Origin: Chiridota heheva | Lineage: Eukaryota; Echinodermata; Holothuroidea; Apodida; Chiridotidae | Direction of reading: 5' to 3' | DNA: 64,000 nucleotides | NCBI GenBank assembly: GCA_020152595.1 | Contig: JAIGNY010001464.1 | Location: 1,281,001-1,345,000, forward strand | Shown: positions 5,351 through 7,829 of the stretch, piece after piece | How positions within the stretch are numbered: the first letter of the stretch is position 1 | Layout of the letters: the number at the start of each line of letters is the position of its first letter | Program-made: the position numbers and the translations under genes | The notes under the pieces: generated by a model | Databases searched by the model: none | The model's input: the letters and a program-made list of their open reading frames with translations, nothing else | What the model was told of the DNA's origin: nothing

Positions 5351-5650
5351 AAATAATTTGTCAAAAATTACAATTAACATATGGGCTATTATATGTTATG
5401 CTAGTTTATCAGACAGATATACAAAACATGTCAGATTGTCGATTTCATATTATCAGATTATTCAACAGCATATTTTGTCAATTAAAGTTAAGAACTTAAA
5501 TCCTTTCAAAACAATGAAGGCTTATCCCAGGTTTCTGTGGCCCAAACTGATGAGAATCAATAACTCCCTGGACAATAAATCACAGGTTTACTCCTAACAA
5601 TGGTGGGAGGGGGAGGGTGGAAGAGGGAACACTTGCATATGTAAGGTATA

Positions 5651-6124
5651 TATAGTATATATATATATATATATATATATATATATATATATATATATAT
5701 ATATATATATATATATATATATATATATATATATATATATATATATATATATATATATATATATATATATATATATATATATATATATATATATATATAT
5801 ATATATATATATATATATATATATATATATATATATATATATATATATATATATATATATATATATATATATATATATATATATATATATATATATATAT
5901 ATATATATATATATATATATATATATATATATATATATATATATATATATATATATATATATATATATATATATATATATATATATATATATATATATAT
6001 ATATATATATATATATATATATATATATATATATATATATATATATATATATATATATATATATATATATATATATATATATATATATATATATATATAT
6101 ATATATATATATATATATATATAT
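5651..6124. repeat. (TA)n microsatellite, about 470 bp
   Basis: Almost pure AT dinucleotide. It lies inside copy A exactly where the related copy at 46270-46760 has the short stretch CATATACATATACC. The array therefore probably grew from a seed inside the element. The Ile-Tyr 'ORF' across it is not a gene. Confidence 0.98.
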
Positions 6125-6249
6125 GTGCCGCTTTAGTAGTTGCCTTTTTTACATCATTTTCATAGTGCAGGTCCCACAAAATAAGGTTTTAGCCTGTTAA
6201 TTTTGTATTGCTGTCCATTTGAAGAAGAAAAAAAAAAATGTTGAATACT

Positions 6250-6470
6250 CGCACTGCAGGTATTAAATTGACTTCTTTCATACTGCAGGTATTTAATTGA
6301 CTTCTTTCATACTGCAGGTATTAAATTGGCTTCTTTCATACTGCAGGTATTAAATTGACTTCTTTCATACTGCAGGTATTAAATTGACTTCTTTCATACT
6401 GCAGGTATTAAATTGACTTCTTTCATACTGCAGGTATTTAAATTGACTTCTTTCATACTGCAGGTATTAA
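6250..6470. repeat. 29-bp minisatellite, left half
   Basis: About 7.5 units of TACTGCAGGTATTAAATTG + ACTTCTTTCA, containing a CTGCAG dyad. The array resumes at 7535 after an insertion. Confidence 0.95.
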
Positions 6471-7534
6471 CCCTTACTCTACCAGGGCTTTAAAAATAGC
6501 GACCCCAATTTTCGTAACTTTTTTTTCATATGCATTTTTGACAACTTTCCTTTCATTTTCGTTACAAGTTTGGTTGAAATAGATGCTAAGATATTTATCT
6601 TTTGAGTAATTAAAATCAATTTAGGAAATATTGGACAAAATTATGCAAATTAAGCAATTTTTGGCTAAATTTGGTCAACAAATGGCCAATCTTTGCAGAA
6701 GTATAACTTCTTGTCAGTATTGAAAACAGAGATTTGTGTTACATATTTAGATTCTTTTTGAAATTTCCTTTCTAATGATACTAATCTATAATTTTTAGAA
6801 AGAAAGGAAAGATGAAAACACATCAAAAATGATAAAAGTCAAACGTCCCCTGAAAGCTGCAGCAGAAAAATAATTACGCAGTGGTCACGGCGAAACTCAA
6901 ACCCGGAGCGCTTGCACGCTAGTCGCGTACATTTCCTCTGCACCACATAGTCGTTCAAATTGGATAGGTGTAATTTTATTCTTATAGGACAGGTTCTAAA
7001 TAGAGGGGGGTATGCCTTTATTTATATATTAAATGAAACGAAAATTCAAGCGCTTTCAAACAGCGGTTCAATAAAGCATGTGTGATGTACGGTTTGGGTT
7101 ACACAATTTTTTGAAAAAAACGGGTCAAAAATGGCAGAAATTCATGAAATTTTGAAGAAATTTCTCCAGAACAAAAGATTGGACGTAGGGATTATACAAA
7201 TTATACCAGAAAGCAATACTATCATGTCTTAGGACTTGCGTGTTTCATTTTAAAGCAAAAATGTGATCTTAAAATTATCGTAAGATGTAAAAGAGAAAAA
7301 TAAAAAAATTGTAATTTTTTTAGCAATTATTGAGTTTTACGCATTTTCGATGTAATTTTTCTATAAATTATGTAATATGACCCCTATGAAAAAGTTCATT
7401 TTGTGAAAGAAATATCCGAGTACTTTAAAATGATACCAAGATTACTTTATAGGACTGTGGTAAAGTCGTGATTTTATTTTTAGAAAAAAGTGGTTTGAAA
7501 ACTGCGATACTATCGCCGCGTGGTAGAGTAAGGG
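6471..7534. mobile_element. piggyBac-like non-autonomous element (1064 bp)
   Basis: It begins CCCTTACTCTACCA and ends with the exact reverse complement TGGTAGAGTAAGGG. It is bordered by TTAA (6467-6470) and TCAA (7535-7538), the latter one mutation from TTAA. The host unit reads GGTATTAAATTG, so the insertion used the TTAA of one minisatellite unit. TTAA duplication with CCC-initial termini is the piggyBac signature. The right terminus CGCGGCGATAGTATCGC extends the inverted-repeat similarity to the 94-bp relative at 62873-62966. No transposase frame is visible. Confidence 0.85.
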
Positions 7535-7720
7535 TCAAATTGACTTCTTTCATACTGCAGGTATTAAATTGACTTCTTTCATACTGCGGGTATTAAATTG
7601 ACTTCTTTCATACTGCAGGTATTAAATTGACTTCTTTCATACTGCAGGTATTAAATTGACTTCTTTCATACTGCAGGTATTAAATTGACTTCTTTCATAC
7701 TGCAGGTATCAAAATTGTTT
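7535..7720. repeat. 29-bp minisatellite, right half
   Basis: About six further units continuing the array interrupted at 6470. Confidence 0.95.
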
Positions 7721-7829
7721 AATCTCATACAGCTGTTACCAAAAAATCTGTCATACTGCAAGTATGTTTTTCGGTTGGTGGGCTGCGCACCCCTATCACT
7801 TTAGTTTGATTAGCCCCACCCACCAGGCA

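Follow-up and report, generated by a model that had tools for sequence, protein, structure and literature searches.

Four related elements in the 64-kb window

The window, a stretch of 64,000 nucleotides from contig JAIGNY010001464.1 of Chiridota heheva to which all coordinates below refer, contains 4 copies of a repetitive element, designated A through D, with an identical order of sequence blocks in 4/4 copies. Copy A lies on the minus strand, and B, C and D lie on the plus strand. Each copy was recovered by profiles made from the array-free left and right blocks of the other 3, with left-block E values of 3.9e-28 for A, 6.2e-28 for C, 6e-25 for D and 8.9e-21 for B, and right-block E values that ranged from 7.8e-15 (C) to 6.7e-8 (A, in which the match begins at model position 33). 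In 20 first-order shuffles of the window, the same block profiles found nothing below E 0.2. Pairwise identity among the 4 copies, outside of their arrays, was 75–83%. These leave-one-out results bear out the proposal of the first-pass annotation that 4 copies share the same ordered blocks. Its further proposal, that the seed for each array exists in the other copies, was confirmed for the seed unit of each minisatellite. The CATATG-type end that it assigned to all copies was present in A and C only, and B and D are without it.

Copy C (46258..46763, plus strand), the most complete of the 4, has the ends TTCGGGAAGGG and TGGGGGAAGGG and is flanked by the sequence GTAAGCAT on its left (46250..46257) and right (46764..46771), which is the only perfect target duplication of an element copy in the window. 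Its AT-rich spacer contains an (ATT)n stretch (46581..46666, detected by TRF), and its 30-mer is present in the basal 2.4 units only; by eye, a spacer like the one that houses (ATT)n is present in many copies elsewhere in the genome. Copy B (42073..42436, plus strand) is without the right terminal part and carries an array of 3.9 units (42303..42429, plus strand), for which TRF gave a unit of 32 bp in place of the 30 bp first reported. Copy D (61211..62045, plus strand, right end placed by eye) has a G-rich left end and a C-rich right end, and it carries 18.4 units of a 30-bp repeat (61298..61857, plus strand), including 2 A-like 29-bp units at 61394 and 61423. Target duplications were not recognizable for B or D.

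Copy A (~5603..7827, minus strand), the borders of which were drawn by eye from the genome-wide ends described below, has the ends CCTGGTGGGTGG and GTGGGAGGGGGA. A possible decayed target duplication, TAACAATG (5595..5602) versus CAACAGTG (7828–7835), is weak, with 6/8 letters in agreement. The right end of copy A contains (TA)n (238.5 units by TRF, 5647..6124), located in the same element region as the (TA)n stretches of sampled genome copies. Its 29-bp array is split into a distal half of 7.5 units (6253..6470, minus strand) and a proximal half of 6.1 units (7537..7713, minus strand), and within this array is a nested transposon of ~1,064 bp (6471..7534) with the ends CCCTTACTCTACCA, bordered by TTAA at 6467–6470 and by TCAA at 7535–7538. 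The longest open stretch of the nested transposon is 60 codons, and it is non-coding. A 94-bp relative with ends CCCTTACTCTACCA and TTAA on both sides, also non-coding, was seen at 62873–62966; we take the 2 elements to be piggyBac-like. Copy A had initially been annotated as a single element, but the ~1,064 bp of the TTAA-type transposon are separate. The limits of A and C have shifted from those first given to those stated here, and the statement that each copy had expanded a different repeat does not hold for A and D, which have expanded the same unit in its 29- and 30-bp forms.

Several other features of the window were noted. A 43-bp array of ~30 units (7842–9109), the unit of which contains the near-palindrome CTCAATTAACAATTGAG, adjoins the left end of copy A. 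There is also a 59-bp array of 45 units at 48622–51268, for which TRF gave an additional period of 176 bp, and a 13-bp array of ACTAGGTACCGCG in 31 units at 29346–29740. A Pfam search with 7 ORFs from the window yielded one match, to RNase H and below the curated cut-off, in the ORF at 26639–27274, which is probably a LINE remnant; the segment 52013–52516 resembles this ORF by eye.

A dispersed family with a compact form

We searched the single assembly that contains the window (1.10 Gb in 3,744 contigs) with sequences from both parts of the element. A left-end 32-mer had 1,633 matches at ≤3 mismatches, which upholds the earlier description of a dispersed family, and a right-block 20-mer had 355 exact matches; the reversed controls gave 0 matches in each case. 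Eighty copies were then sampled, 60 of them with 4 kb each and 20 with 1.3 kb, all from the first 100 listed sites of the 20-mer, which is not selective for arrays to its left. The left end was detectable in 67 of the sampled copies and lay 205–225 bp from the 20-mer in 46 of these, a spacing that we refer to as compact; it was closer in 11 copies and farther away in 10. A typical copy has ~400 bp between its end cores (398 bp in the consensus core) and inverted G-rich/C-rich ends, and 25 compact copies diverged from the consensus core by a mean of 11.7% (range 6.8–18.7%). The family thus exhibits the traits of a MITE: small size (the ~400-bp core), absence of coding sequence, inverted-repeat ends and many copies (the 1,633 left ends). 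The exact 30-mer seed pattern was absent from the viral and prokaryote contigs that were searched. One copy (L014) contains an insert of ~1.2 kb with CGATATTT-rich stretches on both sides, perhaps a nested transposon, and in 2 copies (L011 and L066) a 20-bp minisatellite of the TGAACCGACGGATTAAAATC type lies within the element or close to it.

Terminal sequences and target duplications

Visual examination of the ends of 48 copies showed a G-rich tract followed by GGGGCACTTCATACTAAAAGTGG at the left, and CTCACATATGGAAGTGCCCC followed by a C-rich tract at the right. The consensus of 25 compact copies has a 22-bp inverted repeat at its very ends, consisting of 16 G residues and CACTTC, in which the consensus letters of the 16-G tract are poorly supported. 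The outermost 10–40 bp are variable in length, which is unusual for an end that is recognized by a transposase. Within single window copies the inverted repeat was not significant (p = 0.08 for A, 0.44 for B, 0.27 for C and 0.18 for D). Of 33 copies, 6 had a motif with 4 runs of G in the left tail and 7 had one in the right tail, against a background of 0.1% of 48-nt window stretches, and quadruplex formation by the family tails would be possible in principle.

Target duplications were assessed by comparing the 2 flanks of a copy with each other and with crossed flanks from different copies. Among 61 copies (60 from the genome sample and window copy C), both end cores were found in 33, and in 9/33 an exact 8-mer was common to the copy's own flanks, as compared with 4.1% of 1,056 crossed pairs. 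When the boundaries were limited to the G-rich and C-rich tails, 7/28 copies were exact at 8 bp versus 2.0% of 300 crossed pairs, and 15/28 showed identity at ≥7 of 8 positions versus 19% of the crossed pairs. The 20 copies taken later gave 9 testable ends, 2 of which matched exactly over 8 bp (p = 0.086); these 2 also matched exactly over 10 bp, with p = 3.6e-5 when the background was floored. In the pooled set, from which window copy C was omitted, 8/36 copies were exact at 8 bp (1.5% crossed), 5/36 at 9 bp (0.3%) and 3/36 at 10 bp (0.1%). Because the 9- and 10-bp identities also exceed those of crossed flanks, the duplication length is not fixed at 8. In the window, the duplication score of copy C was reached by 10/1,500 random zone pairs and by 0/1,500 after shuffling of C's own zones, but 8-mers are shared by 19% of random 90-nt zone pairs from the window, which makes duplication tests confined to the window weak.

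Mode of mobilization

These observations bear directly on the class of the element, which the first-pass annotation had placed with Helentron/HINE elements. Such an element would be mobilized by the rolling-circle mode and would show T/T insertion without target duplication, a 3' hairpin and central tandem repeats. Central repeats accompanied by a microsatellite do recall the HINE layout as outlined in the excerpts of PMC7492417 and PMC4067079, and the right end of copy C folds at –10.3, as compared with –4.3 (sd 1.9) for shuffled sequences. However, in A, B and D the right end folds no better than shuffles, and no constant hairpin was seen among the 4 window copies; the inverted repeats are fully terminal in the consensus rather than subterminal; the resolved target sites, for example TCCTCTAC, AACATTTC, AATGGGTC and GTAAGCAT, showed no T/T rule when inspected by eye; and duplications of ~8 bp flank many copies. 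Inverted ends together with target duplications genome-wide are the findings that had been named in advance as contrary to the Helentron assignment, and we have rejected that class. Rolling-circle mobilization of a HINE is, on this evidence, highly improbable.

Equally little weight can be given to dispersal of a minisatellite without transposition, by means of extrachromosomal circles for example, with the shared flanks as carry-over. Tandem repeats are indeed frequent in the region, TRF having given 69 rows for the window, but both ends of the element recur, short duplications flank these ends, and the array is absent from most of the sampled copies.

The duplication of ~8 bp and the inverted ends fit a cut-and-paste element and suggest one that is probably hAT-like. 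An 8-bp target duplication fits hAT, and MITEs of the hAT superfamily have duplications of ~8 bp, inverted ends, small size, no coding sequence and many copies. The Chiridota family is like them in each of these respects and unlike them in its long, variable G-rich end tracts. hAT dimerization domains are plentiful in the genome, with at least 150 matches (150 scored of 1,120 candidates). By eye, no autonomous partner was found among the 100 left ends, 100 20-mer matches and 150 hAT domains listed, which are a small part of both the family copies and the hAT domains. The closest of the listed domains, at C102:99145, is 5.2 kb from the 20-mer of copy L028; no other listed domain has a listed copy less than 10 kb away. 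By our own arithmetic, 100 x 150 sites should yield ~0.14 pairs at such a distance by chance, and the family ends are absent from the 4,001 bases around this domain.

Another superfamily with duplications of 8–10 bp might move the element instead. P, Merlin and Mutator-like duplications are in this range, which would accommodate the 9- and 10-bp identities described above (5/36 and 3/36), and family ends such as CC(C/T)GGGG do not match a textbook hAT end. On the other hand, a length of 8 bp suits hAT and hAT domains are abundant in this genome, hAT being the one superfamily that was searched for. We consider movement by one of these other superfamilies to be rather unlikely, though a serious competitor to a hAT-like class.

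Internal unit series

The interior of the element also has a repetitive character. The 398-bp consensus core has 7 matches to CCTGCAGTATGA (≤3 mismatches), with spacings of 26, 30, 30, 41, 43 and 91, and one further match on the other strand, whereas 1,000 shuffles of the core gave a mean of 0.12 matches and a maximum of 2. Among the units of copy C, 10/28 pairs could be aligned at p < 0.05, most strongly u2-u3, u3-u4, u3-u6 and u6-u7. Two motif forms had 38 and 32 matches inside the 4 window copies and only 0 and 1 matches, respectively, elsewhere in the window. From the 7 unit motifs, the unit alignments and the confinement of the motifs to the copies, we infer that the interior is an old, decayed repeat series; its degenerate units, mostly 26–43 bp apart, would each start with CCTGCAGTATGA.

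Array states among copies

Expanded arrays were rare among the 80 sampled copies. Arrays of the 30-mer with >3.2 units were found in 3/80: L021 (3.6 units, a borderline case), L028 (6.9 units) and L051 (4.6 units), the last of which is also the one copy (1/80) with a right-end 33-mer array. One copy (L009) has a 31-mer array, with 22.4 units when a longer zone is taken. Long (TA)n was observed in 14/80 copies and another simple repeat in 2/80 (L031 and L086). With (TA)20 or longer within 300 bp as the measure, the right part of the element was positive in 14/80 copies versus 7/240 flank zones of 60 long loci. The exact 30-mer pattern has 134 matches in the genome; the 100 of them that were listed belong to 54 loci, among which 12 have ≥2 matches. 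Two loci were chosen from this list: L090 has 40.6 units of 2 interleaved variants and runs into N, and L091 has a 14.6-unit array inside an element flanked by ATGTTTAT on both sides, the 8-bp sequence occurring once at the left and twice at the right, after each of the 2 right ends that this copy carries. Across copies, 6 sites have been expanded: the 30-mer, the 31–32-mer, the right 33-mer, the TA stretch, the AT-rich spacer and the G-rich tail. In the left tail of L089, the G-rich terminal tract is now a short GGGGCAGGGGGAGTGGT-like tandem series. With two 30-mer arrays among 4 copies, the window is atypical of the sample.

We searched 87 copies for 7 of the array units. Those of D, L009, L090, B and the right end of L051 were each confined to one copy, the A unit was also present in D and in L089, and the L028 unit was found once more, in L049. 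Because arrays are rare among the 80 sampled copies, it appears that the element spreads seeds and that single loci expand different ones. The array states across copies are in accord with the first-pass idea of a nursery of mini- and microsatellite seeds that are expanded differently in each copy. The spread of ready-made arrays is for the most part not borne out, since 46/67 copies are compact. Transposition of array-bearing copies, which would found array-bearing families, could draw on the nearly unique 29-bp unit that A and D have in common, on L091, which bears its array together with intact duplications, and on the single occurrence of the L028 unit in L049. Against it stand the compact majority, the restriction of 5/7 tested array units to a single copy among 87, and the fact that A and D, at 77% identity outside the array, are no closer than the other pairs (75–83%). 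We therefore regard the copying of expanded arrays as such to be improbable.

In our preferred reading, which we hold with considerable confidence, the element is a non-autonomous, non-coding cut-and-paste MITE with a ~400-bp core, ~8-bp target duplications and an interior of degenerate units, which is probably moved by hAT and which grows arrays locus by locus from a compact mobile form. The compact form would be what mostly transposes. Growth would start after insertion, from 2 to 3 near-repeats that are already present, and at single loci one such near-repeat (the 30-mer pair, the 31–32-mer pair, the right 33-mer, the TATACATATA stretch, the AT-rich spacer or the G-rich tail) would expand into a locus-specific array, presumably by slippage or unequal exchange.

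The 29-bp unit common to copies A and D

A pattern in which the 29-bp unit runs on into the first letters of its neighbour was found at 3 loci in 1.1 Gb: A (7 matches), D (2 matches) and C209 (1 match). The last is copy L089, a compact copy with one 29-bp unit. Among the 80 sampled copies, the 29-bp form was present in 0 and the exact 30-bp unit in 15. Copies A and D are 54 kb apart, are in opposite orientation and have the 77% identity already noted. By our own arithmetic, the chance of such sharing, judged from position alone, is about 3e-4. This sharing is only suggestive, because the 29-bp form already represents 3 of about 57 loci with exact units (the 3 loci plus the 54 among the 100 listed of 134 30-bp matches). 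It is a hint that units have been exchanged between linked arrays. Alternatively, the 29-bp unit may have originated independently in A and D, or may have reached both by way of an unsampled subfamily; the single unit in the compact copy L089 indicates that the form can arise elsewhere. A broader scheme, which we put forward as speculative and would not expect to hold in full, is that a minisatellite decayed and gained mobility, leaving a fossil repeat series as the body of the element, that its insertions plant seeds, and that the regrown arrays act as ports of homology at which units pass between linked copies; gene conversion from A to D would fit such a scheme.

Comparison with other repeat-bearing elements

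A copy-number-variable internal array between constant ends, the trait of tandem-repeat-bearing MITEs, is present in the Chiridota family, and this kind of element is already known (as excerpted from PMC12628747, PMC9659126 and PMC4596501). The tandem-repeat MITEs of Xenopus, miDNA4 (Tc1/mariner) and Xstir, are described in the excerpts of PMC12628747 and PMC9659126 as non-autonomous inverted-repeat elements whose internal unit is single or arrayed, with errors at short repeats proposed as the source of expansion. The Chiridota element is similarly non-autonomous, with inverted repeats and an internal unit that is single or in a variable array, and its growth from pre-existing near-repeats would be close to the account given for the Xenopus elements in the excerpted part of PMC12628747. 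It is unlike the Xenopus elements, so far as those excerpts describe them, in its ends and in that several units per element have been expanded, along with simple-repeat seeds. BrickBuilt of Porphyromonas gingivalis is a MITE with leader and tail blocks and small inverted repeats around a 23-bp minisatellite (PMC4596501, in excerpt), a likeness by description only; it is bacterial and has one repeated unit and 19 copies in one strain. The Cg_HINE of Pacific oyster (PMC7492417) and DINE-1/HINE elements (PMC4067079), according to the excerpts of these reports, also combine flanks that stay constant with a microsatellite and tandem arrays that vary, but they are without target duplications and prefer TT, whereas inverted ends and duplications of ~8 bp characterize the Chiridota family.

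In the literature searched, which lay mostly outside subscription journals, we found neither this family nor a MITE of hAT type in which several internal seeds can expand. What is special to the family is the number of its expandable seeds, its compact mobile form and, possibly, exchange between linked arrays. If the sharing between A and D is a result of conversion, arrays would let diverged, dispersed copies exchange sequence. The origin of new minisatellites is otherwise mostly inferred from single cases. With >1,000 copies, mostly in one compact state, it becomes possible to count within one genome how often arrays are born, which seed is preferred and what the outcome is.
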